This document shows positions 42,826 through 58,410 of a DNA stretch of 64,000 nt, piece after piece. The translations under genes and the position numbers were made by a program. The notes under the pieces were generated by a model. It did no database searches. It was not told where the DNA came from and saw only the letters and a program-made list of their open reading frames with translations. Numbering within the stretch: position 1 is the first letter of the stretch; each line of letters begins with the position of its first letter. The stretch is from an uncultured Ignavibacteria bacterium (GTDB taxonomy: Bacteria > Bacteroidota > Ignavibacteria > Kapaibacteriales > Kapaibacteriaceae), in the NCBI GenBank assembly GCA_937870915.1, contig CALMZQ010000026.1, positions 1-64,000 on the forward strand, read 5' to 3'.

Positions 42826-43697
42826 CTCCACCTTCTATGTTGCCACGACCACAATTCTGGTCTCTTCAGGATAGCCTCTTCGAGAATTCGCACATGACGT
42901 TTTGTGAGTTCGATGATGCCATCCTTGGTATTCTCAAGGTCATGCATAGGCAGCTCATGTATCGGGGCATTGTAGGTGCCATCGGCCATACGCTCGGCAA
43001 AGGCATAGAAGATCGGTGCGTTGTATTTCAATGCAAGAGCAGCGGGAGCTTCATAGGTTGGTGTTGAGCGTCCGAAAAAATCGATCCACGGATCTTTATC
43101 GACCTGGCCATGTTGGTCAACAAGGAAGGCCACAACGCCCCCTGAAGACAAGGCCCGTACAAGTGGGCGAGCAGCCTCTCCCATCGGGACAACCACATTG
43201 CCAAATCGTGTTCGGTACGCGTTGAGAAATCTATCAGCGGCTGCATTGGATTGCGGATGGACAACAATCGTCACCGGTGCATTAAGTAAGATACCCGCCG
43301 TCTGAGCAAGGTATTCCCAATTGCCATAATGTGCAGAGAGAAAGATCGTTGGTTTTCCAGCTCGATGTCTGTTGAGGACAACATCAAAACCCGGGATCTT
43401 CACCCTCGAGGTAAGATCTGTCCTTGTGAGTGCCGGTGTAGCTAGCAGTTCCGAGAGGACGATGCCAAGATTTTCATATGAGCCTCGCATGATCTCTGCG
43501 TGTTTAGCAGCGGAGTACGTAGGGAGTGCCCGTGTGATATTCGCGAGCGTAATGTTTCTTCGTTTAGCAGAGAGCCCCATCAATCGTCTACCCAGGAATG
43601 CTCCAAGACGTTGCCTGCCACTGGGTGTGAGTGTTTGCGCAATACGTCCTAGACCGAGGAGGCCAGCTGTTGTTGATATGTCGGCGATCGACTTCAT
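42819..43697 (-). CDS. LpxL/HtrB-like lysophospholipid/lipid A acyltransferase
   Basis: A 292-residue membrane-associated acyltransferase. The HX4(D/E) motif is HYGNWE at 123-128, preceded by PTIFLSA. The second motif region PMGEAARPLVRALSSGG and the DQH segment follow. It should transfer a secondary acyl chain to lipid A or a similar glycolipid. It overlaps the GWxTD gene by ATGA and precedes a heptosyltransferase gene. Confidence 0.92.
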   Translation of the reverse strand: MKSIADISTTAGLLGLGRIAQTLTPSGRQRLGAFLGRRLMGLSAKRRNITLANITRALPTYSAAKHAEIMRGSYENLGIVLSELLATPALTRTDLTSRVKIPGFDVVLNRHRAGKPTIFLSAHYGNWEYLAQTAGILLNAPVTIVVHPQSNAAADRFLNAYRTRFGNVVVPMGEAARPLVRALSSGGVVAFLVDQHGQVDKDPWIDFFGRSTPTYEAPAALALKYNAPIFYAFAERMADGTYNAPIHELPMHDLENTKDGIIELTKRHVRILEEAILKRPELWSWQHRRWRS

Positions 43698-45118
43698 CTA
43701 CTCGTTGGCATAAGGTTCTCAGGCGGATTGGGGACCGGAGAAAATGCCTTGGCATAGAGATTGTACCAATTCGGTTCGCGCACCTGGCCGATCATTGTTG
43801 AGTGAACAAGTCGATGGTTCTGTTGGAGTTGCCAGTCAACAAAATAGAAGTACACCCCACCTTGGATGTGCTGGTAGAACCAGATCTCATAGGGCTTTGC
43901 ATCGATCGACTGAATGAACTGTTCCACTTGGGTTGGCTGACCATATCGTAGGAGTGCAAGTCCACGATCTGTCTTCCACCCGTTGCGAAACGATGCACTG
44001 GAATAGAAGGTTTGTGCTCGTTTGAACATGGCGCGGAATTCATCTAGTCGTTCATTGGACATTGTAGACACATCGGGATCTCTATTACGCCAAAAGAGGA
44101 ATAGGTAGCGTTGTTGAGCTCGTTCATCTGTACATTGTTCCCGGATAGCCTGCTCTGCTGATGATGCTAACACATCTGACAATTCAAGTTCAAGTGCAAG
44201 TCTCTCACCTTTGATGACGGACCATTCCGACGCTTGAAATTGTTCGTCTTCTGTGAGCATAATTCTGCCTTCAGGGGGCAGTTCTGGATTGAGGATATAG
44301 AATCGTTCTTCGCGGGTGTCGTAGACCGTTGCAAGGTCTCTCGACATCATTCGAACCTTTAGCGTGTAGACGCCAGAGCGTAGGGCACCTGCCGGGATCT
44401 CTTCACGAACAACTAGACCATCGCTGCCCCCTATCATCTTCAGATACGTTGTGAGCTGTTCGTCGCGCACGTTATCGAGAACCTGAAACTCAAGCGCAAA
44501 GGTATCAAGCTTTGCACGGAGGGCATTGTAGATCTCGGCATAGATGCAGATCGATGGATCTCTACCAATGATCTCATGTCGAGGATTCGGAACAGCCGGT
44601 TGTCCGTTCCGGTCGAAGCGCGTATCTGCGCCGAGTTTGATTGGCATCACGAACATCACGTCACTGATCGACGGTAAGTATGTAAAGGGGCGAACAGTAC
44701 TCGTGAACTGACTCGTTACGGAAGAGCTTCTATCGTTGACATCTGTTGCAGTGAATCGAACTGTATATTTCCCCGGAGAAAGCATCAGGGGGCGCACACC
44801 GGAATAGAACTGCTGATGAACGGGCACAGAAGAAGTGCTTGCTGCTGATGAGATCCATTCATCACGTGTTGTGTCTCCCACTTCCGACACCACTTCTAGG
44901 CTACAGAGCAGTTCACCAACAAACCCATTCTGCGTAACAACATATCGCACTGCAGTATCGGCAAATGAGTAGTGGAACTCCCACTTTGTCCGAGCTCCTT
45001 CCCCACGGAACTGTACAACATCGGCAACAATGTCGAGCTGGTCCTGCGACGTTGCATCGGGTGTAAACCACACCAGCGCTACAAGTAGTGAAAGGCAAAA
45101 CATTCTAAAGTTTGTCAT
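43694..45118 (-). CDS. GWxTD-domain exported protein
   Basis: A 474-residue protein with a signal peptide (MFCLSLLVALVWFTPDATS). The GWxTD motif is GWKTDRGLALLRYGQP in the C-terminal third, preceded by helical segments (FRAMFKRAQTFY). The N-terminal half is beta-rich, like an Ig-type domain (YTVRFTATDVNDRSSSVTSQ). The family is confined to FCB and a few other phyla; function unknown. The ATG at 45118 with AGGTC upstream was chosen over the long N-terminal extension, which crosses the PorV terminator. Confidence 0.88.
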   Translation of the reverse strand: MTNFRMFCLSLLVALVWFTPDATSQDQLDIVADVVQFRGEGARTKWEFHYSFADTAVRYVVTQNGFVGELLCSLEVVSEVGDTTRDEWISSAASTSSVPVHQQFYSGVRPLMLSPGKYTVRFTATDVNDRSSSVTSQFTSTVRPFTYLPSISDVMFVMPIKLGADTRFDRNGQPAVPNPRHEIIGRDPSICIYAEIYNALRAKLDTFALEFQVLDNVRDEQLTTYLKMIGGSDGLVVREEIPAGALRSGVYTLKVRMMSRDLATVYDTREERFYILNPELPPEGRIMLTEDEQFQASEWSVIKGERLALELELSDVLASSAEQAIREQCTDERAQQRYLFLFWRNRDPDVSTMSNERLDEFRAMFKRAQTFYSSASFRNGWKTDRGLALLRYGQPTQVEQFIQSIDAKPYEIWFYQHIQGGVYFYFVDWQLQQNHRLVHSTMIGQVREPNWYNLYAKAFSPVPNPPENLMPTSR

Positions 45119-45142
45119 AGTGGTGACCTGCCGTAAAAGAAC

Positions 45143-45173
45143 AATGCCGTCGATCACGATGATCAACGGCATT
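45143..45173 (-). terminator. Rho-independent terminator after porV
   Basis: AATGCCGTCGATCA (45143-45156) and TGATCAACGGCATT (45160-45173) form a 14-bp stem with one mismatch and a 3-base loop. On the minus strand it is followed by GTTCTTTTAC. It begins 31 bases after the porV stop and closes the TonB-giant-PorV transcript. Confidence 0.85.
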
Positions 45174-45203: not shown

Positions 45204-46280
45204 TCAGTTGAATCGCATTGCAACGCTAAAACGACTGATAAGACCAAGATTTTGTGTTGGATTGATCGAATAGTCGACCTGACCTTCAAAACCGCCGCCA
45301 TTATATTTCAGACCAACACCACCGGCTAGTCCGAATTGGTCGGAGCCGAAGCGATAACCTGCGCGTACACTGACGAATTCTTTCCACGTGTATTCTGTGC
45401 CGATGGCGAACTGTTCCGGCACGTCAGAGAACGTTTCAAAGTCAACAGCAGCCATCCACGAATGTTGGAGGATACCATCAGCATCGATCTCGGGTTCAAA
45501 CACAGCCCCCTTGCAGAGATCTGCTCCAAGACCGATACGGAATGAGAGCGGGACGTTGAAGTCCGACGTCTGCATCTGCATATCGAGAGGCATGGTATTG
45601 ATACCATCCGTAGGCGGATTTGTGCGGGTGACATTCGGTCCGGTATAGGCTTGTTGTGTGCCCAGTGAGTTCACAGAGAATGCCAATACTAGGCCGTTGA
45701 AGCCCGTGTTGTAGCGAGTCCCAACATCGAACACAAAGCCCGATGCGGACATATTCGTGAAGGCGTGCTGCACGTATTTGGCTGTAGCGCCGAAGGCGAA
45801 CTGCTCGGTAAGGTAGCCGGCAAGTGTGAGGCCAATGGCGATGTCACTAACGTTGTAGATACCTCCGGTGCCCTCCTGCTGATCTGTGGTGGTAACAAAG
45901 ATGTCGCCACTAGAGAATCCCGTAAAGCTGGCTCCAAGGCGGAACTTCTCGCCTACAGGGATAGCAACAGCCGCGAAGCTGTGGGACATACCTGCAAACC
46001 AGAATGTCTGGCTGAAATCAGCGGCGAACCGCTTCACATCAGCTAGACCCGCAGGGTTCCAGAAGACAGATGTAACATCATTGGCAAGGGATGAAAATGC
46101 GCCGGCCATCCCTGTGCCACGTGCACCAACGCCAATCTTGAGGAACTGTCCTCCCGAGAGACCGACCTTGGTAAAATCGCCGGCTGTTACTGCGATGAGC
46201 TGCGCCGATACGATCGGCGTTGAGAAGCAAAGCAGGACAGCCGAAAGCGCGAGACGAAGTGTTGTGTTCATGTTCTTCAT
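45204..46280 (-). CDS. porV: PorV/PorQ-family outer-membrane T9SS protein
   Basis: A 358-residue protein with a signal peptide (LALSAVLLCFSTPIVSA). KVGLSGGQFLKIGVGARGTG, then MAGAFSSLANDVTSVFWNPAG is the PorV/PorQ start. The rest is a FadL-like barrel (strands such as FAFGATAKYVQHAF and VSVRAGYRFG) ending in FSVAMRFN. PorV shuttles T9SS cargo from the translocon to the attachment complex. The ATG has a perfect TAAGGAGG ribosome site 7 bases upstream, the best in the window, suggesting high expression. The genes just upstream encode its likely clients. A second PorV-like paralogue elsewhere cannot be excluded. Confidence 0.9.
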   Translation of the reverse strand: MKNMNTTLRLALSAVLLCFSTPIVSAQLIAVTAGDFTKVGLSGGQFLKIGVGARGTGMAGAFSSLANDVTSVFWNPAGLADVKRFAADFSQTFWFAGMSHSFAAVAIPVGEKFRLGASFTGFSSGDIFVTTTDQQEGTGGIYNVSDIAIGLTLAGYLTEQFAFGATAKYVQHAFTNMSASGFVFDVGTRYNTGFNGLVLAFSVNSLGTQQAYTGPNVTRTNPPTDGINTMPLDMQMQTSDFNVPLSFRIGLGADLCKGAVFEPEIDADGILQHSWMAAVDFETFSDVPEQFAIGTEYTWKEFVSVRAGYRFGSDQFGLAGGVGLKYNGGGFEGQVDYSINPTQNLGLISRFSVAMRFN

Positions 46281-46292
46281 GGGGTGTCCTCC

Positions 46293-49200
46293 TTACTCTC
46301 CGTCACCAACAACACGAGCCGGACCGACAACGACAGAGAACTTACGGTAGACGCTAGCGCCCTCCGGTGTCTCAATCTTTGCCACAAGCATCTGGCTTGC
46401 CACGCGCTGGTTGTTCTTAGAAATGAGCGTCCAGACGTCGGCTCCGGCCTTGTCAGGGGTCACGCCGTTCAGTTCGTTATGTTCGATCGTTGTGATGATC
46501 TCGCCATTCGTGTTGTAGATCGTGATCGTACATACACGTGGAAGACGTGTGAAGTATATCTGACCTTGGAACGGAGTACTTACACCTTCATGCGTAACGT
46601 AGTACGGGTTCGGAACAACCTGAACTTGGTTGAGTTGCTCGTCTGTGTACGACTGCGACGATGTTGTTGCAAGGTACTCGTCATATGGAGCAACCTTGAT
46701 GTAGGCCTTTGTACTATCAAATGGAAATCCGAATGCGCCACCAAAGGTCATGAACCGAACCTTGTCACCAGCCTTAAAATCTTCGGTTGGATATTCTGTT
46801 GGCGGATTGGACGTAGTAGGTGCATTCTCAACAGCTGCAAGGCTCGAAGTACGACGTCCGCGTAGTGAGTAGTCCACAACGAATTGGCATCCACCAATCG
46901 TGAACATATTCAGGAAGTCGAGCGTGTCTTTACCTGTTGTTGATACGTTGCGTGACTTGTAGTAACGCAACTGCTGGCCTACTGGGCGACCTGAATTCGA
47001 CTCAGCAGCATAGAAACGAAGACGAGCAGGGCTCCATTCGCCGTTACGCGAGTTACGCCATCCGAATGCTGCACTACCAAAGTTCCCCATCAGGATCGAC
47101 TCCGGATTTGGGAATGACCTCTGTTGAATCTGCGTCAACTGCGCATAATCCAGTAGCTGTGGCTTGAGATCGAAATCATATCCCACTGTTGCCTTGCCAA
47201 GCGTGCCGTCTGGACGAGGATCATCGCGTTCAAAGGAGTACACATTCTTCACATCGAATGTAAGGTACGGTACATTCTGGAAGGTCATCGTTGAGTCCTT
47301 GCCAACATCATCCGTGGTGTTGAGCTGGAACTTGGTTGTGATGTTTTCCGTGCCACCATCCTTGAACGTCACTTCATAGATGCCCGGACCATTATTGTAG
47401 CTCACTTCCCATGGCTGTGCTGGCACAAAGCCCGGGTATGGCAATTGAATGTAGGCCGGAGCAGGATTCAATTCATTTGTGTTGTCGAGTACACTTGCAG
47501 GGAGGTTACTCTTCTTCACCGAAACCACGGGTGGCCCACTCACGGTGAATGCAGTGTCTGTCCGATACACTCCACCCCACTGTTCCATAGCATAATCGAA
47601 GGCCACACCGAGTGCACCATAGGCGTACTTATTTGGAAGGCAGAAAGCGTCCGATGTGAATGTTCCAGACCGGATTACCTTTTCACGAGAGTCAGGTAAA
47701 CCAAAGGTCGTGGTATCGATACGCATAATTGTACCATCGGAATTGAACGCGGTGTCGATGGTGATACCAAAGGTGTCAACATATACACCAGAGTTTTCCG
47801 TGAAGTATCCAGGAAGACCTGCAGAGGTTGTTTGCGCACAGAGTTCAGGCGGAAGCAGGCTTGACCAGCTGTTAAGATTTTCACGAGTTGCAGAGTCACG
47901 AAGGATAAAGACCACTCCGTACAGGCCGTATCCAGCCGTTGTAGCTTGAGGATCTCTGTTGAATCCACTCCAGAGGCGGAAGAACTCAAGCTCGAGCGTA
48001 CGTCCAGCAAACAGCTGATTGAATCGTTGCGGATCGTCAACGAGGAGACGCACGTTGTAGATACCACCAAGCTTCTTCTTGTTTTGCTCATCCGTAGTGA
48101 ATGTGAACGAAACAGCCTTTCCTGGCCTGGAGGCCAATGGAGTTGCCGTAACGACATTTGGAAGACCAACGGAACGATTATTTAGTTTCGACGGTGTGGG
48201 AAGGAGGAAATCGCCCTCATCATAGGCGCGAACAGCATATGAATAATCGATGTTGTTGATGAGCTTTTCACTTGCTTCTGGATTGCTCGAGTAGGTTACT
48301 CGTCCATCATTATTGTCATCACCAACGTCAAAGAACACGCGGCCGCTCGTCTGTTCGCGCATGTTACGTGCGATGAGGGTTCGACGCACTTCGTTTGTTT
48401 CCTCCCACGGGCGTTTCGTGGCGACGGCCGTTTTAGACCCATCAGATCCAACGATTGTATCAGCATCGTTGAAGAGGAATGGATCTTGCTTCACGCGGCG
48501 AGCGAGGATGAGTTTAACGAGCGAGTCTTTAGCCGCTTTTGCTGCAACGGTGTCCAACTGAAGTGTTGCACCAGTGCGTCCTACAACCGGCAGTGTCTCA
48601 ATAAGAGTTGTGAAGTAGGTGAAGCGAATCGAGTCCAGCTTGTCAAAGTTCGGTACACCGGCCGTTGAGCCCGAAGTGATGATTGTTGAATCGGTACGAT
48701 TGATTCGAAGACCATATCTCGGGTCACGAGCGCGGATCATTTGCGAGAAGTAGGAGCCCCATGGTTCCTGGAATTGGTTGATCGTGCGAACAACCATAAA
48801 TCGCTTCTGGCCTGGCTTGATTACGTCGATGATCGAGAATTGGTCCATGCGAATACCTGAGTTGCCAACAACTGTGCTACCGTCTTTGAGGAACGGAGAA
48901 GCAAGTTGGAACTGACCGATCTGTTTCCATGCGAGAGGACCCTTACGAGCATTCTCTTGATAGTCCACATTGAATGTATCCTGATCGGTGCGGCGTGCGC
49001 GATAGATTCGATAACCCAAGAAGTCGAGGCCACGCTCAAGTGTATCTACGGAGAGTTCTGCTGTAGAATCCCACTGGAAGGCAACAGCATTGTTCAGAGG
49101 AAGAAATCCTTCCGGCGGGATCGCCATAAAGCTATTGACACCGGTTGTAGACCCTGCCGGCGCGCCTTTGATGATCGAGATATCCGGTGGCTTTGGAGCT

Positions 49201-50591
49201 CTGAACTGGTTATCGTAGACGAACTGTGCAAAGCGAACCTTGCGGATCAGCTCAGCCATGTCTTCCGTTGTGCCCGTTGCATCTCCGCCAAGACCTGTTG
49301 CGCCCAGAATGATCCCAACAACGATACGAGCCGAGTCTCCCGGACGCATATTGAATGGGCCCGTTGCCATCATGAGACGACGGTCTCCAGGACCGAGATC
49401 CGGGTCTTTTCGTTGGCTTGAGATGAAGTTATAGCGGTCTTCGTTCTCAATGGGGTCTTCTGTGATAGGCCAGTTACGCATGGTCTGTAGACCAAGTTGT
49501 TCGGACACTGGGAACTGACGCTTGTCCTTACGAAGGAACTTCTCGGCATCAATGGCCGGCGACTCTAGGAAGTTGAATCCGAGGTATCCGAAACCTTGGT
49601 TGGCTTCGCCGCGGTCTGCATTTGTCCACTGTACGGCAAGGTTCAGTTCAGGAGCTTCTAGGTAATATCTAGCGCGGTCGTTTTGGGCACCACCAACTGG
49701 ATTGGTTTGAAGAGCAATGTCTACGTCTTGAACAGCTGCCATCCAGCAGTCATAGAGTGTGTCTTGGTACTTGGTTGGGTGGATGAACATGTACTTCAAG
49801 AAGACGAAATCTGCATAGTCACCAAATCCCCATGAATACACGATCTGTTCGATCTGCATACCAAATGGGTATCCATCTGCCTTGCGCTTGGTAACGCCCC
49901 CTTCATAGTAGCTGAGGTCAGTGTCCTTGTACGTACAGAACACATCTTCTTCAGAAATGAAAGCCGGCCCCTTGGAGTAACTTGTTTTAAAGCGAAGTGA
50001 AGGGTCGTTTACGTACAGACCATAGTAGTTGTTGTAGCGGATTGTGTCCAATGGGCTAGTGTCCCATATCGGCCATCTCGGGAACGTAGGATTCTGGAAA
50101 TCCTGTCCGTCTGTGGAATTGAAATCCGTTGAGAAATACGTGCGGTACTTGTTAACGCCTGCATCCGTGGTGGTATTCACGTCATCACCATCTTCGATGG
50201 TACCTGGTACCATCCAAGAAAGGCCCGAGTTAGGATTATACGTGATCATCACACGTTTGCGGAGGGAGTCCGATCCTGGTGGGCGCTTCCGTGCACCGAA
50301 CCATGCACCACCGGCAAAGATGTATTGGTTACGGCGACCGCGAGGCCAGAAGGTTCCACCTACACCGTTGCGAACGTCGAATCCAAATATCCCATAGTTG
50401 GTGGTCTGGAAATCGATATTTGAAACCACGTTGCGCTGTTGATCGAAAACACCACGAGGTGTTCTCTGCACACTTTCGCCAACCTTGTCTTTTGACTTTG
50501 GCGCGTTTCCGTTGGTACCTGCTTGTGCCGTCACAGTGACCATGGCAAGCATGGTTGCAACCGTGATGCAGAGCATCCATCGTTGATTCAT
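46293..50591 (-). CDS. Giant secreted protein (1432 residues), likely surface-exposed
   Basis: A 1432-residue protein with a signal peptide (LCITVATMLAMVTVTAQAG). The N-terminal 450 residues are rich in Trp, Tyr and Asn (TTNYGIFGFDVRNGVGGTFW, IFAGGAWFGARKR) with no catalytic motif that I recognise. The middle has fibronectin-like segments (GLDFLGYRIYRARRTDQDTF). The final ~110 residues (VVPNPYYVTHEGV to VVGPARVVGDGE) look like a T9SS-type or Ig-like end domain. Start ATG 50591 has GGAG 7 bases upstream; an ATG at 50621 also has one. It lies between the TonB receptor and PorV genes with gaps of 44 and 12 bases. Function unknown; a surface-layer or receptor-partner role is an inference. Confidence 0.8.
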   Translation of the reverse strand: MNQRWMLCITVATMLAMVTVTAQAGTNGNAPKSKDKVGESVQRTPRGVFDQQRNVVSNIDFQTTNYGIFGFDVRNGVGGTFWPRGRRNQYIFAGGAWFGARKRPPGSDSLRKRVMITYNPNSGLSWMVPGTIEDGDDVNTTTDAGVNKYRTYFSTDFNSTDGQDFQNPTFPRWPIWDTSPLDTIRYNNYYGLYVNDPSLRFKTSYSKGPAFISEEDVFCTYKDTDLSYYEGGVTKRKADGYPFGMQIEQIVYSWGFGDYADFVFLKYMFIHPTKYQDTLYDCWMAAVQDVDIALQTNPVGGAQNDRARYYLEAPELNLAVQWTNADRGEANQGFGYLGFNFLESPAIDAEKFLRKDKRQFPVSEQLGLQTMRNWPITEDPIENEDRYNFISSQRKDPDLGPGDRRLMMATGPFNMRPGDSARIVVGIILGATGLGGDATGTTEDMAELIRKVRFAQFVYDNQFRAPKPPDISIIKGAPAGSTTGVNSFMAIPPEGFLPLNNAVAFQWDSTAELSVDTLERGLDFLGYRIYRARRTDQDTFNVDYQENARKGPLAWKQIGQFQLASPFLKDGSTVVGNSGIRMDQFSIIDVIKPGQKRFMVVRTINQFQEPWGSYFSQMIRARDPRYGLRINRTDSTIITSGSTAGVPNFDKLDSIRFTYFTTLIETLPVVGRTGATLQLDTVAAKAAKDSLVKLILARRVKQDPFLFNDADTIVGSDGSKTAVATKRPWEETNEVRRTLIARNMREQTSGRVFFDVGDDNNDGRVTYSSNPEASEKLINNIDYSYAVRAYDEGDFLLPTPSKLNNRSVGLPNVVTATPLASRPGKAVSFTFTTDEQNKKKLGGIYNVRLLVDDPQRFNQLFAGRTLELEFFRLWSGFNRDPQATTAGYGLYGVVFILRDSATRENLNSWSSLLPPELCAQTTSAGLPGYFTENSGVYVDTFGITIDTAFNSDGTIMRIDTTTFGLPDSREKVIRSGTFTSDAFCLPNKYAYGALGVAFDYAMEQWGGVYRTDTAFTVSGPPVVSVKKSNLPASVLDNTNELNPAPAYIQLPYPGFVPAQPWEVSYNNGPGIYEVTFKDGGTENITTKFQLNTTDDVGKDSTMTFQNVPYLTFDVKNVYSFERDDPRPDGTLGKATVGYDFDLKPQLLDYAQLTQIQQRSFPNPESILMGNFGSAAFGWRNSRNGEWSPARLRFYAAESNSGRPVGQQLRYYKSRNVSTTGKDTLDFLNMFTIGGCQFVVDYSLRGRRTSSLAAVENAPTTSNPPTEYPTEDFKAGDKVRFMTFGGAFGFPFDSTKAYIKVAPYDEYLATTSSQSYTDEQLNQVQVVPNPYYVTHEGVSTPFQGQIYFTRLPRVCTITIYNTNGEIITTIEHNELNGVTPDKAGADVWTLISKNNQRVASQMLVAKIETPEGASVYRKFSVVVGPARVVGDGE

Positions 50592-50635
50592 GACATCTCC
50601 AGTTTTCTGCTTCGTATTCATTGTAGGTCTCCGCG

Positions 50636-53600
50636 TCAGAATCTGAATGCCACAGCGAAGTATGCTGTGCGCGGGAATTGATAGTTGCCACGTTGTGCAA
50701 CAAAGTCAGCTACATACATTTGGTATCCGCGGTATGTCTCTTCGTTCGTTACTCGCCCATCATTGTTAAAGTCTACAAGAGGCTGGTACAGCCGCTTTCC
50801 AATCCGATCGTACTGAGCAGGCGCGATCGAAGACTTGTTTGCAGGGTCGGCATCCCGGTAGTAGGTGGTCTGCGGGAAGTCAGATGGCTGGCGATTCAAC
50901 GTCGTACCGTTATAGTCCGGGCTACCCGTTGCAGGATAATAGGCTATAGCATCGGTGAAATTGAGGAGATTCGTCACGTCAAGGGAGAGATCAATTGCAG
51001 AGTTTCCACCGAGAATGTCACCCAATGGAATGGTACGCGTAATGCGAAGCTCCGTATTCCATGTGGATGGAAATCGTGCAGAGTTGATCTGTCCAGCAGC
51101 TTGGCCACGTGCATCAACTGGTGTATATGGAAGACCGGTTTGCCATGATCCGGAAACATTCATTGTGAAGTACTCAAGGAAGGTGATTCCACCAATTGAT
51201 GGACCTTCATCGTTACCCCAGCTAAAACCTAACTGACCGTTCACGCGATTACGTTGGTCAAAGCTGAGTGGGAAATCAGTCACAGGGAATGCCGGATTCC
51301 CTGTATATGGGTCAAGGGCAACAGTGGTGGCACTACTGTTAGCTGTACCGTTCGCAGAAGACAACGTGTAGTTAATATTGAACTGCCAGTTGTCCGTTAA
51401 TCTCTTTTGGAACGTAAGCTCAACGCCGCGGGAGTTACCATAGTCAGCAAGGACTTGCTGATAGAATGGAGTTGGTGCCACACGCACATAGGCAAGACCC
51501 GACTGATTGTAGATATCCTTGTAGTAACCAGTAATGGTAATCGCGAGATCATCCGTTAGCTGTTGATTGTACGCCACTTGATACTGGTTTGTCCGCTGCA
51601 TTTCCATGTTTGGGTTACCAAGCGATTGGGAGCCACGAAGTTGAAATGCATTAAAGGAGTCATAGAAGTCAGACCACGGTGGAGCTTGATAGTAAATACC
51701 GTACGAAAGTTGGAAGTTCTGCCGTTCTGTCAATGGATACGTGATCGAGATGCGCGGACTGATGTAGAACTTCGGCTTCACTTCAGCGAAGCCAGTTGGG
51801 CTTCCAAACGGATAGAACTGATCAAAACTTGTACGGTAGAGGGCGTCTGAATTCAAATAGTCTACACGGAAACCTGGTGTGAACACAAGCCCCTTGAACA
51901 TGATCTGATCTTGAACGAAGATCGCAGCAGTTGTTGGAGTGTACGGCTTTTCAGATGCTGCTTTTGCAGCCAAGGCAGCCGGGTCGCCATTTTGTGTATC
52001 AAAGTAGAGATTACCACCAAACTGATCTCCGTACACATCATAGAACGGAGATCCGTCCCAAGGCGACGAGTTGAGGTGACGTTGAAGATTCAAGGAACGG
52101 AATTCAACACCTGCCTTGAATGTGTGACGTGTTTCACCAACTTCTGCTGAGTGTGTAATGTTACCGTCGATCTGGAAGAAGGTGGCCTTACGGAAATCGA
52201 CTCCACCTTCATTACCACGAGCAGCAAAGAATCCGAAGAGTCCGTATGGATTTGCTGTGGATTGAGCATCCGTCGGACCTTCTACAAAGCCAGTGATCGG
52301 ATTACGCTTCGTTGTTTCGATCTTGACATAACCGTCTTCTGTGTATGCAGTTTGACGGAGGTAGTCATAGGCATCAAGGATCTTGTTTGGCTCTCCATTG
52401 ATGTAGGCAGAGTCATTGAAGGCCATGTTGTCTTCTGGATAATAAAGGTCGAATCCACTGAAGATTCCCGGGGCTTCAAATGTCTTCCGCTTGGCAGTTT
52501 CTGTTGTCTTGCCGTTAAAGGAACCACGAATCTCATACACGGTATTCTGTCCAAGTGTATGATTCAATTGTGCAAACGCATTGGAACTGAATTCTTGTAC
52601 TACGATCTGCTGCGCATTACGAGTTGGAATTCCGTTTGGAGTAGCACCAGCAATAGGATTGCCTGTATTGTCAGTTGCAATTCCCTGCTCATTCGCATAC
52701 AACCAGCCCCAGCTATTACGCTCACCATTTACAAGTCCGTACATACCACCAACAAGCATTGCAATGTCATTACTCAACTGGAATCTCAAGCGACCAGTGA
52801 TGTTCCGTGCCCACGTACGGTTGTTTGGCTGCATGCCCAGATTGTTACCTACTGGGTCCAGTACTTGGAGTCCGATGTTGCGGTGATTCTGATATGAGTT
52901 ACGAACAGAAAAGAAGAACGTAGAACGGTTAAACCCGAGGGGGCCACCTAACGTTACGTCCACAAGGTCTTCAAGCGGATAACCTGCATCTACTCCATTA
53001 CCAGCTGTGCCAAAAAGAAACGGAACGTCCTTTCTCCAGCGAACAAGACCTTCAAAACGATCAGTCTTTCCTGTCTTTACTACGGTGTTAACGATACCAC
53101 CCGTTGCATTTCCGTACTCTGCTCCAAAGCCACCGGTCTGTGCCTGTACTTCCTCAGTTGCAAAGGGGCTTGGCATAGCCGCGGAAACCGTAGCTCCAGA
53201 TTGGCCAAGTCCACCCGTGAACTGGTCAGTTACCGTCAGTCCATCTACGAGAACCTGAGTTTCGGTTGTACGCGAACCACGAACAACGAAGTTGTTGCCA
53301 GATGCACGAATACCGGCGTTAAGAGACAAGGCAGAGGCGACGTTATCACGGGCCACCTTCGTCATATCGGACCCTTTAATGGTACGCGATGTACCAATGT
53401 CCGTACTCCGGATCATTTCTCGGTCCGCTGACACATCCACGGTCTTCATCTTTACGCCACCAACCGACAACTCGAAATTTATCGTCAATGTTTGATCGGC
53501 AACGATCGAGATCCGCTTTACGGCTGTATCATACCCGACGGCTGTAACGCGCACGTCCCACGTCCCAGCGTTGACATTCACGATCGTATACGAACCGTTG

Positions 53601-53770
53601 ATCTTTGTGATACCACCGCGAGTGGTCTCAAGAACACGGACCGTTGCTCCCGGAACGGGCTTTCCGTCTTTATCCAAGACCTTTCCGGTGAGAATACCGG
53701 TGATACCGGCCCATGACGCCGTGCTGGCGGCAATGAGAAGGATCGCGACGAGAAGGTACCGATGTACCAT
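50636..53770 (-). CDS. TonB-dependent outer-membrane receptor with carboxypeptidase-regulatory-like domain
   Basis: A 1044-residue receptor. After the signal (MVHRYLLVAILLIAASTASW) comes a carboxypeptidase-regulatory-like domain (GKVLDKDGKPVPGATVRVLE). The plug follows (about 120-260; ALSLNAGIRASGNNFVVRGS, VQAQTGGFGAEYGNATGG). A 22-strand-type barrel ends in TAYFAVAFRF. It is SusC-like in layout but no SusD-type lipoprotein follows; a giant secreted protein and PorV take that place. AGGAG lies 8 bases before the ATG at 53770; the earlier start at 53800 is less likely. Ligand unknown. Confidence 0.92.
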   Translation of the reverse strand: MVHRYLLVAILLIAASTASWAGITGILTGKVLDKDGKPVPGATVRVLETTRGGITKINGSYTIVNVNAGTWDVRVTAVGYDTAVKRISIVADQTLTINFELSVGGVKMKTVDVSADREMIRSTDIGTSRTIKGSDMTKVARDNVASALSLNAGIRASGNNFVVRGSRTTETQVLVDGLTVTDQFTGGLGQSGATVSAAMPSPFATEEVQAQTGGFGAEYGNATGGIVNTVVKTGKTDRFEGLVRWRKDVPFLFGTAGNGVDAGYPLEDLVDVTLGGPLGFNRSTFFFSVRNSYQNHRNIGLQVLDPVGNNLGMQPNNRTWARNITGRLRFQLSNDIAMLVGGMYGLVNGERNSWGWLYANEQGIATDNTGNPIAGATPNGIPTRNAQQIVVQEFSSNAFAQLNHTLGQNTVYEIRGSFNGKTTETAKRKTFEAPGIFSGFDLYYPEDNMAFNDSAYINGEPNKILDAYDYLRQTAYTEDGYVKIETTKRNPITGFVEGPTDAQSTANPYGLFGFFAARGNEGGVDFRKATFFQIDGNITHSAEVGETRHTFKAGVEFRSLNLQRHLNSSPWDGSPFYDVYGDQFGGNLYFDTQNGDPAALAAKAASEKPYTPTTAAIFVQDQIMFKGLVFTPGFRVDYLNSDALYRTSFDQFYPFGSPTGFAEVKPKFYISPRISITYPLTERQNFQLSYGIYYQAPPWSDFYDSFNAFQLRGSQSLGNPNMEMQRTNQYQVAYNQQLTDDLAITITGYYKDIYNQSGLAYVRVAPTPFYQQVLADYGNSRGVELTFQKRLTDNWQFNINYTLSSANGTANSSATTVALDPYTGNPAFPVTDFPLSFDQRNRVNGQLGFSWGNDEGPSIGGITFLEYFTMNVSGSWQTGLPYTPVDARGQAAGQINSARFPSTWNTELRITRTIPLGDILGGNSAIDLSLDVTNLLNFTDAIAYYPATGSPDYNGTTLNRQPSDFPQTTYYRDADPANKSSIAPAQYDRIGKRLYQPLVDFNNDGRVTNEETYRGYQMYVADFVAQRGNYQFPRTAYFAVAFRF

Positions 53771-53818
53771 GGATCTACTCCTGAAGGACTCGATGGACAT
53801 TTTTTAAATTCTTCTAGA

Positions 53819-55834
53819 TCAGCGGACAACAACAACAGGCACAACGGAACGACGACCGTTTTGCTCTACAACACAGTGATAGGTGCCTGCGCTAAGTGAT
53901 CGTGTTGCGATCACGAGTTCCCATTCACCTTGCGTTGTTGGACTTTGCGATGTCATGATAGTTTCTCCGAGTGTCGAGAGAAGTGACACCGTCACGCGCC
54001 CACTGGTTACACTGTTGATACGAACTGTTGCAACATCGCTTGCCGGATTCGGCATAACGCTGATGTTCGCTTTAAGAGTTTCATCTTCACTGTCAACACT
54101 ATTGACAGGCGTAAGCTGCGCTACATCATAGGCAGCGAACATCACCTTTGCTGCATCTGCAGGAGTTTCAACATTCGTTACACGATCGCCTGGATTTGGA
54201 CTTGCACTGTAGGCCAAATACATCCGGCCATTCAGTACGTCATCACAGAGTGTTCCGTATTGGCAGTTCACACCGTCTACTGTAAGGTCTGTAGGGGGCG
54301 ACCAAATATTCACACCCGCAGGCTTATACGTTGCCCATACGTGGCCGTTTAAAGCATCAACTGCAGAGAGTGTATCGGGCTCGTTTACCGGATTGCCGCC
54401 CGTTGTATCGGCCATGATGTTCTTCGTATCGCCATTCTTGAACGATCCGTACAGACAATAGACCGTGTTCTGTGCATCGATACCGAGCTGCGGCCAACGG
54501 CTTACTCCATCAAACAATCGCAAATTCATCGCATAACCGCTTCCATCCCATGCTGATCCATTCGGAGGAGCCATGAAGAAGAGATTCGTCTCCCCTTCAT
54601 TAGTGTACAGCATCCCAAGGTCGCGAAGGAATGTTTGCTGATTGAGGATCGAGATCAAGCCTTGACGCGTTCCATTCGTATCCTTACGTACAACGTACGA
54701 GGGAACAACACCCATCACATAATGGGTGGTTCCGTCACCATCAATGATCACGTCAAGGTGACCATTCGGCGTAGGGACCGTATCAGAATACACTTCGAAT
54801 GTGCCCCATTCATTCAATGCGGAGTCAATGTCTGAGTATTGCGGGGAGAAAATGACCCTTGCTTGGTCTGCAGGCCATGTTGATCCGCCGTCTGTGGACG
54901 TGCGGGAGATCATGCGGAGGGAATTGTCTGTATACACGATCACCACCTTGTCACCACGTGCTGTTATAGCATAGGTGTCTCCACCAAGACCCACCGGTTG
55001 GGCGCCTTCTGGTGCTCCTGATCCCGTAAAGAGTGTTTCACTGCTCCACGAAAAGCCACCATCTGTAGAACGACGGTAGCCAACTTGAGGATTGCCATCG
55101 GTGAGGGTACGGTTGTAGATCAAATGCGTGTTGCCCTGAGCATCAACGGCAGCACGAGGCCAGAGGGATGAGTCGGCCGGAGACGTTACTTCTTTGAAGA
55201 AGATCGGTTGATCTCCAACTCCGGAATTGCCATAGAAGCGGATTGGAGTGTGTGACGGCGTTCCGATCAGTCCGTCTTGATATTGCACAAGAGATGGCCA
55301 TCCGGCCCGCTGCGACTCTACCTTCTGCCAGTCCTCAATTCCTATTGCCGGGGCGTCCGGTGTAGATACCTCAAGGAACGTGTAATGCGTTCCCCGGTTA
55401 TTGCCGGCAAATCCCGGGATGCGCGTTGCTAGGTCGCGCGTAGAGTCTTTTGACGTCATCCAAACCATCTGAATATACTTGTCTGGACCATCGGCAAAAT
55501 ATGCTAGGCGGTTAGACATCGCACCATTCGTCTGGAAGTCGTAATACGTAAATCCAACTTCAACGCCAGGGAGCCCCGCTTGAACTGCATCCACGATCTT
55601 TGGCGTGCGTTGCCCAAAGATCGGCGACGAAACAGCCTCCCGATATTCAACGTCATTGGCTGTAGTTGAAACTTTACCGATGGACTCACGTACAGTGTTA
55701 CCAACGGACCCTTGTGTCCGTGGTATCATAGTGTTCTTAGCGCTCTTAAGCGACTGAGCAGGCGAAGCCGTACTCGCCAAGGCAAGTGCAAGGACAACAC
55801 CGTACATATGGAAATGCGTCAAAAAACGGTTCAT
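53819..55834 (-). CDS. Secreted sialidase-like Asp-box protein with T9SS sorting domain
   Basis: A 671-residue protein with a signal peptide (MYGVVLALALASTASPAQS). A six-bladed propeller-like region carries Asp-box repeats (STDGGFSWSSETLF, STDGGSTWPADQAR) and YxxxP-type strands (VAAMFAAYDVAQL region). The C-terminus (VMPNPASDVATVRINS, then SAGTYHCVVEQNG) is a T9SS type A sorting domain. An arginine triad typical of true sialidases is not obvious, so glycan binding may be its role. CAGGAG lies 9 bases before the ATG. It heads the TonB-PorV cluster. Confidence 0.87.
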   Translation of the reverse strand: MNRFLTHFHMYGVVLALALASTASPAQSLKSAKNTMIPRTQGSVGNTVRESIGKVSTTANDVEYREAVSSPIFGQRTPKIVDAVQAGLPGVEVGFTYYDFQTNGAMSNRLAYFADGPDKYIQMVWMTSKDSTRDLATRIPGFAGNNRGTHYTFLEVSTPDAPAIGIEDWQKVESQRAGWPSLVQYQDGLIGTPSHTPIRFYGNSGVGDQPIFFKEVTSPADSSLWPRAAVDAQGNTHLIYNRTLTDGNPQVGYRRSTDGGFSWSSETLFTGSGAPEGAQPVGLGGDTYAITARGDKVVIVYTDNSLRMISRTSTDGGSTWPADQARVIFSPQYSDIDSALNEWGTFEVYSDTVPTPNGHLDVIIDGDGTTHYVMGVVPSYVVRKDTNGTRQGLISILNQQTFLRDLGMLYTNEGETNLFFMAPPNGSAWDGSGYAMNLRLFDGVSRWPQLGIDAQNTVYCLYGSFKNGDTKNIMADTTGGNPVNEPDTLSAVDALNGHVWATYKPAGVNIWSPPTDLTVDGVNCQYGTLCDDVLNGRMYLAYSASPNPGDRVTNVETPADAAKVMFAAYDVAQLTPVNSVDSEDETLKANISVMPNPASDVATVRINSVTSGRVTVSLLSTLGETIMTSQSPTTQGEWELVIATRSLSAGTYHCVVEQNGRRSVVPVVVVR

Positions 55835-55868: not shown

Positions 55869-55886
55869 GCGCACAAGGCGGTGCGC
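55869..55886 (-). terminator. Possible terminator hairpin after the anti-sigma gene
   Basis: GCGCAC (55869-55874), loop AAGGCG, GTGCGC (55881-55886). On the minus strand it lies 24 bases after the anti-sigma stop and is followed by CCTCTTAT, a weak T tract. A second, smaller inverted repeat (55894-55911) contains the stop codon itself. Confidence 0.4.
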
Positions 55887-55909
55887 AATATACAATGGTT
55901 TTGAAACCA

Positions 55910-57100
55910 TTATGGGGTGATTTGAAGACCAACGATGGCATTCAACAATATCCCCTGAACGGTACGGGCCTCTGCACCAACGGAAAGTGATATCCATTGT
56001 TGGAGCTGAACCTGACCTGTAACACGGCCATATCCTACAAGTCCGATATCATCTACACCCACCCCACCTCGGACGAGGACTTCTGCGAATCCTGATCGTA
56101 TCACAGATTTCTGGACAAAGGCGGATCCCCAAAGCCGCGATGTTGTGGCCGTGGTCGTGATTGTTTCCAGGTCATACCCATTTTTCGGCGTCGGATCCAA
56201 CTTTGATGGCCTGCCACTTTCTCCCGGTACTCTTCCAGCCCAGCCTGCCCCTGGTTCATTGCGCCTGATATTTGCCTTGGTCACCACGTTGCTGGCATAG
56301 GAAAGGGACCCAAACTCCAATCCAACTACAAGACCGTCCCCTACTCCAAACCCAACACTCTGGGAAACGATCGTTGCATTCGACATGCTTGGCTCACTTC
56401 CTCCAAAACCTGTCCCCACGTAGGTTCCGAGAACTACAGCCAACGTGGGAGAATGGGGCTCATCCAATCCTATGCGTGGTTGGTCCGGCCTTGGGTCCAT
56501 GACCGGCGGCGCATCATCAAAAAGTGAGGTAAGAGGACGTGTTGGGAGTTCCACAGACTTGGAATTCTCGGGAGTGCCTTCGTCATCAACACCAAGCGAT
56601 GGTGATCCAAGGACTACGATGGATGCTGTGGACGTATCTAGACGCGCCGGCTGGCTGATGCCAAAATCGTTACGTCCTGCTACCCTTGGTACACGCATTT
56701 CGCCTGTTTTGTGATCAACAGACGCTACCTGGGTTTGAGCAGTACGACCAATGAACTGCATCACAACGTCCTGAACCGGAACGGTGAGGGCAAACAACGC
56801 TACCACCAGGCTTGCCATCAAGCGCTGCATTCGAATGTTCCCGCCTCCACCGCCTTTTCGGGGAAGCGGAGCCGCTGTAGCTGAGTCTATTCTTGAAAAC
56901 ACAGCAGCGAGAGTATCCTCCCGGGTGTCCTCAGGGACCTCGATCGGATCTGCGCATGACATTGCAATGTGGATCAGAATCGCTGCGTCAAAAGCTTCTT
57001 TTGCAGCAGGATCTTCGGAGATCCGCTTGCGCAGTTCCATGTCCTCTTCGATCGAGAGATCGCCGTCGAGATATTTCGAGACGAGAATGTCCGGTATCAT
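55910..57100 (-). CDS. Anti-sigma factor with periplasmic linker and predicted outer-membrane barrel
   Basis: A 396-residue protein. Residues 1-50 are an anti-sigma-like cytoplasmic helix bundle (KYLDGDLSIEEDMELRKRIS) without the zinc His-x3-Cys-x2-Cys motif. One inner-membrane helix follows at about 91-112. Residues 115-228 are a Pro/Asp-rich linker. Residues 229-396 alternate as beta strands (LAVVLGTYVGTGF, VGLEFGSLSY, FAEVLVRGGVGVDDIGLVGY, ISLSVGAEARTVQGILLNAI) and look like a small outer-membrane barrel. The layout matches the dual membrane-spanning anti-sigma factors described in Bacteroides. Its ATG overlaps the sigma gene stop (ATGA). Confidence 0.75.
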   Translation of the reverse strand: MIPDILVSKYLDGDLSIEEDMELRKRISEDPAAKEAFDAAILIHIAMSCADPIEVPEDTREDTLAAVFSRIDSATAAPLPRKGGGGGNIRMQRLMASLVVALFALTVPVQDVVMQFIGRTAQTQVASVDHKTGEMRVPRVAGRNDFGISQPARLDTSTASIVVLGSPSLGVDDEGTPENSKSVELPTRPLTSLFDDAPPVMDPRPDQPRIGLDEPHSPTLAVVLGTYVGTGFGGSEPSMSNATIVSQSVGFGVGDGLVVGLEFGSLSYASNVVTKANIRRNEPGAGWAGRVPGESGRPSKLDPTPKNGYDLETITTTATTSRLWGSAFVQKSVIRSGFAEVLVRGGVGVDDIGLVGYGRVTGQVQLQQWISLSVGAEARTVQGILLNAIVGLQITP

Positions 57101-57666
57101 TTTTCGTGCAGCACTACAGCTGCGAGAAGTTTGCGCATCATAAGTCGGGCGCGATGTACACGCACCTTGGCCAACGAAAGGTCAATAGAGCAGATTTCGG
57201 CGATTTCTTGGTAGGAATGCCCTTCGTATTCACGGAGGATCATTGCCTCGCGTAAAGCCGGAGGGAGCACCTTCATGGCACGCTCAATTTGTTCTCGGAG
57301 GGCAATGTCTACGTCGGCATCTTCCTTCCAGGCATGAGCCCCTTCATCAAATGCTTCATGGGTCTTGCGACGTGACCTGATCATGTTGAGACAGGTCCTT
57401 CGTGCTATCACAAAAAGCCATGAGCGCACGTTGTCCCCACGGAGCTCTTCTCTATGCTCGTAGAATCGGATGAAGGTGTCTTGGAAGGCGTCCTTGGCGG
57501 CTGCTTCATCATCGAGCATGTGCCTGCAGAACCGATACACAGCCCCCTGATAGAGGTCGTAGATCGTACGGAATGCAGCCCTGTCTCCTTGGCGGAAAGC
57601 AGCTACCACCAGAGTGAGATCCTCTGGAAGTAGTGGTTTGCCGGTATGGTTGCCGCGTCCGCGCAT
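57097..57666 (-). CDS. ECF-type RNA polymerase sigma factor
   Basis: A 189-residue sigma-70 family factor. Region 2: YDLYQGAVYRFCRHMLDDEA, then AKDAFQDTFIRFYEHRE and WLFVIARRTCLNMIRSRR. Region 4: LREAMILREYEGHSYQEIAE, then ICSIDLSLAKVRVHRARLMM. It is coupled by ATGA to the anti-sigma gene, so envelope signals probably release it. The start ATG at 57666 has AAGGG 10 bases upstream and is preferred over a TTG 9 bases earlier. The next downstream genes (TonB, PorV, secreted proteins) are plausible targets, but no shared promoter motif was found. Confidence 0.93.
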   Translation of the reverse strand: MRGRGNHTGKPLLPEDLTLVVAAFRQGDRAAFRTIYDLYQGAVYRFCRHMLDDEAAAKDAFQDTFIRFYEHREELRGDNVRSWLFVIARRTCLNMIRSRRKTHEAFDEGAHAWKEDADVDIALREQIERAMKVLPPALREAMILREYEGHSYQEIAEICSIDLSLAKVRVHRARLMMRKLLAAVVLHEK

Positions 57667-57714
57667 GGTATTCAACCCTTCGTTAGGAGGTTGACAACGC
57701 GGAGGAAAAAAGAG

Positions 57715-58410
57715 TTACAGGGACACCACCCAATTCACCAAGGTTAGTGCGCCAAAGATCAGCATTGTGATCACCCACACAACAAGGCCAACGATGATTC
57801 CGAACCGACGGTGCAGTCCTCCCCAGGTTGTAAGAGCAACTGCAATAGCGATATACTGCCACACGGATATCAAACTGATTCGCTGCAACCAGGTAAACAT
57901 CGCTGGAGCGTCAAGGGGGCTTATGAATACCCCTGCATGAAGTCCGGCCCTTGAAGTATGAAAGAGCAAATGCCCTGTTGTTGCTAGCGCAAGATCGGCA
58001 CATTGCAGCAGTGCTGACGAGGCAACCGAAACCATGGCCATAGAGTACGTGACGGGCGCATTGGTCATGAACCGCGTCATCACAAGGAACAATCCGGAGA
58101 GGGCTGCCATGGAGATGATGGTCACCATCAATGCACCTCCGAGTGCTCCGGTGAACTGGCGCTGGGGCGATGAAAGATCGAGCTGCGCCTCCTTAACTGG
58201 GGCGGCGGCAGCATTATTTGTCAGAATGCGAGATTCAACGGCCAATGACACATCGCCGTTCTCCAGCATGGCACACCACGTACTCGTAATGGCTATGAGC
58301 AAGACGGCTATGGCGAAACTCGCCATAGCCGTTTGTGGTGTTGCTTCTTGTACTCTCCATGGCGCAAATAAAAAGTGCCAGAGAGCCTTGCTTGCAGAAA
58401 TGATGCGCAC
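57715..58410 (-). CDS. YIP1-like multi-pass membrane protein
   Basis: A 231-residue protein with five membrane helices (about 28-48, 90-112, 122-145, 175-195 and 205-228). FLFAPWRVQE at the N-terminus and the helix spacing recall the YIP1 domain. The start is a GTG at 58410 with AGGGG about 11 bases upstream; no ATG is available. It follows the M16 gene by 14 bases in the Lnt-M16 operon. Function unknown. Confidence 0.7.
   Translation of the reverse strand: MRIISASKALWHFLFAPWRVQEATPQTAMASFAIAVLLIAITSTWCAMLENGDVSLAVESRILTNNAAAAPVKEAQLDLSSPQRQFTGALGGALMVTIISMAALSGLFLVMTRFMTNAPVTYSMAMVSVASSALLQCADLALATTGHLLFHTSRAGLHAGVFISPLDAPAMFTWLQRISLISVWQYIAIAVALTTWGGLHRRFGIIVGLVVWVITMLIFGALTLVNWVVSL

Follow-up and report, generated by a model that had tools for sequence, protein, structure and literature searches.

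A Dma-like ECF sigma/anti-sigma gene pair outside Bacteroidia and its predicted link to a surface-protein module

Introduction

The closest described systems are the Dma anti-sigma factors, in which an anti-sigma domain, a transmembrane (TM) helix, a long disordered tether and a C-terminal barrel form one protein encoded beside an ECF sigma factor; they are limited to Bacteroidota (PMC13088901). Dma1 and Dma2 of Bacteroides thetaiotaomicron, the partners of Das1 and Das2 (ECF21), share this four-part layout and ECF neighbor with the protein described here (PMC13088901). Reo, the anti-sigma factor of the EcfO-Reo system of Bacteroides fragilis and Phocaeicola vulgatus, is likewise said to reach from the cytoplasm to the surface with a barrel, and the sigma gene of this system is strongly induced by envelope stress (PMC9308784, PMC13114119). 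The regulons of Dma1 and Reo include NigD genes, but nigD1 is not induced by Dma2 (PMC13088901, PMC9308784, PMC13114119). The EcfO-Reo regulon includes NigD lipoproteins and has an effect on O-antigen length. Deleting the anti-sigma factor in such systems activates the sigma factor and vesiculation.

Two other types resemble these proteins in part. Class I anti-sigma factors (zf-HC2/ZAS, RseA_N) likewise begin with a helical domain that precedes one TM helix, but have a periplasmic domain where our 396-aa protein has its C-terminal outer-membrane-type barrel. The Flavobacteriaceae-type pair of an ECF sigma factor and a VWxxI anti-sigma factor (alignment A5, recovered in this analysis; we infer its family f33 to be probably Flavobacteriaceae) shares the TM helix, the long linker, a PF13505-type barrel and the ECF neighbor. 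Its anti-sigma segment is short (~40 residues), in contrast to the four-helix domain of the 396-aa protein.

Results

A gene pair conserved in the Kapaibacterium group

The window analyzed here is a stretch of 64,000 nucleotides from an uncultured Ignavibacteria bacterium. A first-pass annotation of its sequence had proposed an ECF sigma factor with a Dma-type anti-sigma factor. The two genes share 4 bases (ATGA):

57097 to 57666, minus strand: ECF sigma factor gene, 189 aa (Pfam Sigma70_r2 7e-17, Sigma70_r4_2 5.8e-15)
55910 to 57100, minus strand: Dma-like anti-sigma factor gene, 396 aa (open reading frame, AF2 model, relatives with an ECF neighbor)

Both reading frames were present, and the two Pfam matches bore out the assignment of the sigma factor, whose gene starts with the ATG at 57666 or an alternative TTG at 57675. 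The nearest NCBIfam models (TIGR02950, NF058625 and TIGR02985) all scored below cut-off. NF058625 sigma factors were tried as a route to the Bacteroides Dma proteins and set aside; their partners are mostly short anti-sigma factors without barrels.

The gene pair is far from chance, because a match was found in 29 of 60 related genomes (own genome included) and an ECF gene lay directly upstream of all 29 recovered anti-sigma ORFs. The homologue search advised in the first-pass annotation thus found an ECF gene beside 29/29 relatives. The occurrence outside Bacteroidia that it had pointed to also held: the named relatives are Kapaibacterium and Ignavibacteria MAGs. As Kapaibacterium belongs to the phylum Bacteroidota (NCBI taxonomy), the published limit of Dma (PMC13088901) is not broken. 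Similar proteins beside ECF genes were also present in other orders of the class, and the own genome encodes three more proteins of this layout beside ECF genes (L111:3373-4605, L117:2650-3747 and L110:1840-3081). The sigma factors adjoining this anti-sigma family formed one clade in the tree (support 99/94).

Predicted structure of the 396-aa protein

An AlphaFold2 (AF2) model built on a 28-row alignment divided the protein into four parts:

56876 to 57100, minus strand: predicted cytoplasmic anti-sigma domain, residues 1-75, four helices within 3-75 (AF2, weak family matches)
56783 to 56839, minus strand: predicted inner-membrane helix, residues 88-106 (AF2 helix coinciding with a hydrophobic segment)
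56438 to 56782, minus strand: disordered linker, predicted to be periplasmic, residues 107-221 (pLDDT <50 over most of it, 108-217)
55919 to 56437, minus strand: C-terminal 8-strand outer-membrane-type beta-barrel, OmpA-like, residues 222-394 (AF2 pLDDT mostly >90, Foldseek)

No Pfam match above cut-off was obtained for this protein. Its first 131 residues weakly resembled the NCBI anti-sigma model NF052375 (4.5e-5, below cut-off), and zf-HC2 was matched by 8 of 28 relatives (best 9e-6). The anti-sigma domain therefore appears zf-HC2-like, and it is predicted to bind the sigma factor. The hydrophobic segment was present in 28/28 relatives.

Length and topology statistics were taken from the 28 full-length proteins among the 29 relatives. 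Linker length ranged from 91 to 192 residues, and such a floor is expected of a tether that must cross the periplasm. The linker had been described as Pro-rich; this applies to the 396-aa protein (12% Pro) but not to the family (1-17%, mostly 2-7%). The general property is low complexity, with in-frame tandem repeats in several linkers (such as PQSV in L008). In the paralogue L111 the linker consists of NSEQRIA tandem repeats, suggesting length variation. A linker motif (PLTSLF/PTLNSLF) was dropped, as it occurs in some family-f1 members and is missing from most relatives.

The barrel strands were modeled at residues 222-234, 239-254, 257-279, 309-336, 339-350, 354-365, 370-380 and 384-394, close to the barrel of 229-396 claimed from the sequence. 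The long loop between the third and fourth strands (280-308) is predicted to lie outside the cell. Foldseek searches of the barrel against the PDB returned designed TMBs, OmpA and NspA (probability 1.00) as well as OmpX and Ail, with no soluble barrel among the best fifty matches. A PDB sequence search with the family profile gave nothing relevant. In the family, the expected periplasmic turns were near-constant (2, 2 and 4-5 residues) and the expected outer loops variable (L2 20-91 residues, L4 3-19 residues). Hydrophobic and polar residues alternated in strands 1, 5, 7 and 8. Most family proteins terminate in F or L; the 396-aa protein ends in ITP instead. In family f1, Lys300 of the outer loop is invariant and Leu301 nearly so. 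A second model, of the L111 paralogue, reproduced this layout at lower confidence, with helices in the N-terminal domain, another helix spanning the hydrophobic segment, a linker region and an outer-membrane-type barrel, the best fifty Foldseek matches of which were again membrane barrels. Thus, the N-terminal bundle, the single inner-membrane helix and the barrel of the first-pass annotation were reproduced, and its Dma-type layout is supported by AF2, Foldseek and the relatives examined. We consider a location of the barrel in the outer membrane likely.

The likeness to Dma1 and Dma2 is one of layout. The protein described here has a four-helix zf-HC2-like anti-sigma domain, occurs in another class (the Kapaibacterium group) and belongs to a pair linked to a T9SS/TonB surface module. 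Comparison with the Flavobacteriaceae type by hhalign gave a weak overlap in the barrel (34% over 54 columns, first strands) and no relation in the anti-sigma part. The Flavobacteriaceae-type sigma factors formed a separate supported clade in the tree, with sigma factors of other types in between.

A promoter-like motif upstream of the sigma gene

The region before the sigma gene contains one candidate element:

57693 to 57719, minus strand: promoter-like element TGTAACTCTTTTTTCCTCCGCGTTGTC (TGTAAC-N17-TGTC), conserved in relatives

Of the 29 relatives, 22 had the exact motif at this place before the sigma gene (25 when other spacers were allowed), compared with 0 of 1450 shuffled upstream regions. 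We propose that TGTAACTCTTTTTTCCTCCGCGTTGTC serves as an autoregulatory ECF promoter. A copy with a spacer of 16 precedes the sigma gene of the paralogous pair L110. The window contains 2 exact copies versus 0.17 expected, and 1 of 100 shuffles contained two. In contrast, a scan of the own genome detected no enrichment (15 sites versus 27 for the reversed pattern). Many copies are thus chance occurrences and the regulon must be small. Isolated sites (e.g. L283 and L288) were set aside as targets for the same lack of genome-wide enrichment.

A second motif copy in front of the surface module

Downstream of the pair lie the genes of a putative surface module, including the second exact motif copy of the window:

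55885 to 55892, minus strand: TATATTGC, housekeeping-type (Bacteroidota -7-like) element before the 671-aa gene (similar elements in relatives)
53819 to 55834, minus strand: secreted 671-aa BNR-like protein with T9SS sorting tail (Por_Secre_tail 5.3e-7)
53985 to 54011, minus strand: second motif copy TGTAACCAGTGGGCGCGTGACGGTGTC, in the 3' end of the 671-aa gene (synonymous-site conservation)
50636 to 53800, minus strand: TonB-receptor-like protein, 1054 aa (Pfam CarboxypepD_reg 7e-17, Plug 1.8e-7)
46293 to 50621, minus strand: 1442-aa large surface protein without Pfam domain (homologues, synteny)
45204 to 46280, minus strand: PorV/PorQ family outer-membrane protein (NF033709 6.7e-49)
43694 to 45172, minus strand: GWxTD-domain protein, whose gene closes the shared module (TIGR04514 1.5e-18; syntenic in L070 and L072)

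Gene order downstream of the pair is shared throughout the order: the TonB-receptor-like gene comes next, in some cases with one secreted-protein gene in between, and on contigs that extend far enough the 1442-aa, PorV-family and GWxTD genes come after it. The genes upstream of the pair differ between families although the downstream order is kept. The 1442-aa gene is part of this synteny, and 36 of the 40 genomes tested from the order encode a homologue; together with the neighboring receptor-like and PorV-family genes it makes up an unnamed surface module.

Control of the downstream surface module had been suggested in the first-pass annotation, with a promoter search upstream of 55834. The sigma motif was not found there. 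Instead, this gap contains the TATATTG housekeeping-type element, and a TATATTG/TATATTTG-like element occupies the same gap in most relatives; the 671-aa gene thus seems to own a housekeeping promoter, presumably TATATTGC. The idea of control itself gained ground from TGTAACCAGTGGGCGCGTGACGGTGTC, a conserved promoter-like motif located inside the 671-aa gene, within the T9SS-tail coding sequence, 184 bases before the receptor-like gene. The third bases of its GTA and GTG codons were identical in 8 of 9 relatives. By comparison, among the 42 invariant fourfold-degenerate columns of the 671-aa gene the best was identical in 7 of 9, and most in 3-5. In the ninth relative (L056) the embedded motif is lost, and a copy with one mismatch lies close by. 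In front of the receptor gene, no motif of this kind was detected outside family f1. These observations suggest that the surface module is probably a target of the sigma factor through the TGTAACCAGTGGGCGCGTGACGGTGTC promoter.

Genomes without the pair

Nine family members lack the pair, either between the same flanking genes or, where the contig ends early, in the genome as a whole. Where the sigma gene is present, 10 of 11 genomes kept the embedded motif (<=1 mismatch), versus 3 of 9 where it is absent (one-sided Fisher's exact test, by hand, p ~0.012, uncorrected for kinship). The other six pair-less genomes lost the motif together with the VT..VS peptide that it encodes. One of the three keepers, G010, has sigma fragments (E 1e-11) and an anti-sigma 3' end (E 2e-16) with intact flanking genes (L278:3745-4045), which we read as what is left of a deleted sigma/anti-sigma pair. 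Elsewhere in the pair-less genomes, no close copy of the sigma factor was found (best 39% identity). The joint loss of the pair and the embedded promoter in the same genomes represents a natural experiment in regulatory evolution. Note that the 1442-aa module gene persists in genomes without the pair, so that the pair would modulate the module and not be essential to it.

A candidate third target

In five genomes, the own genome included, the motif (0-1 mismatch, spacer 17-18) was also found shortly before a gene for a secreted protein of ~300 aa that has a weak T9SS tail. This gene occurs in 5 of 27 genomes, all five with the pair and all five with the motif before it. We propose it as the third target. 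NigD (PF12667) had no match in the own genome and none in 148 sampled genomes; in contrast to the EcfO-Reo regulon, the regulon proposed here comprises the receptor-like/giant-surface-protein/PorV operon and the secreted protein. This regulon, with its promoter motif and targets, is the main addition to the first-pass annotation.

Discussion

Given the layout, ECF linkage and motif conservation computed here, we consider it likely that the pair is a Dma-like trans-envelope switch that holds back its sigma factor, with a regulon that includes the large surface module. Cytoplasmic retention of the ECF sigma factor would fall to the N-terminal ~75 residues of the 396-aa protein. As to topology in vivo, we infer one helix through the inner membrane, a disordered tether of ~115 residues across the periplasm and an eight-strand barrel in the outer membrane whose long loop faces outward. 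If the barrel changes (through misassembly, failed insertion, or a ligand or lesion at the surface), the anti-sigma domain would be freed or destroyed. The freed sigma factor would then transcribe its own operon from TGTAAC-N17-TGTC, providing positive feedback, and also the TonB-receptor-like/1442-aa/PorV/GWxTD module, from the promoter embedded in the preceding gene, and the small secreted-protein gene elsewhere.

The data are compatible with proteolysis following a failed insertion as well as with release in response to a surface signal. In a variant of this model that differs in the signal, the barrel is a quality-control reporter without a surface ligand: when insertion by BAM fails, the C-terminus is proteolyzed and the sigma factor is freed, similar to the regulated proteolysis of RseA-like factors. 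The P. vulgatus Reo regulon is induced by an envelope-stress toxin, much like the BamA inhibitor bacteroidetocin A (PMC9308784). The highly variable barrel loops argue against one conserved ligand, and the linker, built from repeats in some proteins, is under little constraint. However, Lys300 and Leu301 in the outer loop of family f1 may mean a specific contact. We regard this variant as quite possible, its probability lying somewhat below one half.

It seems unlikely that the embedded motif is a coding coincidence, reflecting the T9SS-tail peptide VTxGxxxVS, with the pair regulating itself only and the synteny of the module being passive. The motif does overlap a conserved stretch of the sorting domain, three pair-less genomes keep it and the module is retained without the pair. 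However, synonymous fixation at the motif exceeds that at every invariant fourfold column of the 671-aa gene, six of the nine pair-less genomes have an altered peptide, and the keeper G010 still has remnants of the pair. Soluble eight-strand up-and-down barrels exist and AF2 cannot place a membrane, but a soluble periplasmic barrel (lipocalin/avidin-like), making the protein an ordinary periplasmic sensor anchored in the inner membrane only, is very improbable in light of the membrane barrels among the best fifty Foldseek matches for both protein and paralogue, the contrast between short, invariant turns at one end of the barrel and long, variable loops at the opposite end, the strand alternation, the mostly F or L C-termini and the linker minimum.

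Returning to the Dma-like switch, the 396-aa protein may work like Dma by layout and yet have an independent origin. We tentatively suggest, with confidence just short of even, that anti-sigma factors anchored in the outer membrane had more than one origin in Bacteroidota: a zf-HC2-type lineage in the Kapaibacterium order and in sister orders, where a genome has several paralogues, and a VWxxI-type lineage in Flavobacteriaceae, each with its own sigma clade. The zf-HC2 type would control surface-secretion modules via promoters hidden in T9SS-tail coding sequence. With the pair described here, direct signaling from the outer membrane to a sigma factor would extend beyond Bacteroidia to a further class, in which a genome encodes several paralogues, suggesting that the layout is a solution of general use and not a peculiarity of gut commensals. 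With a concrete promoter sequence and targets, the regulon and signal are testable with reporters.

Other ECF-linked membrane proteins were observed. In the own genome (C221, C27), L121:1589-3058 and L124:2268-3245 consist of ECF genes followed by single-TM proteins with a C-terminal T9SS sorting domain (TIGR04183, 35.9 and 29.8 bits, cut-off 23), and L122 and L123 probably have the same arrangement. The L121 and L124 proteins are possible anti-sigma factors pulled on by the type IX secretion system, and thus candidate secretion sensors. In two other genomes of the phylum (L163:1161-2771 and L164:1283-2794), ECF-linked TM proteins are made up mainly of dozens of SPDFSRLMA-like repeats, and L163 matches STI1/HOP DP.
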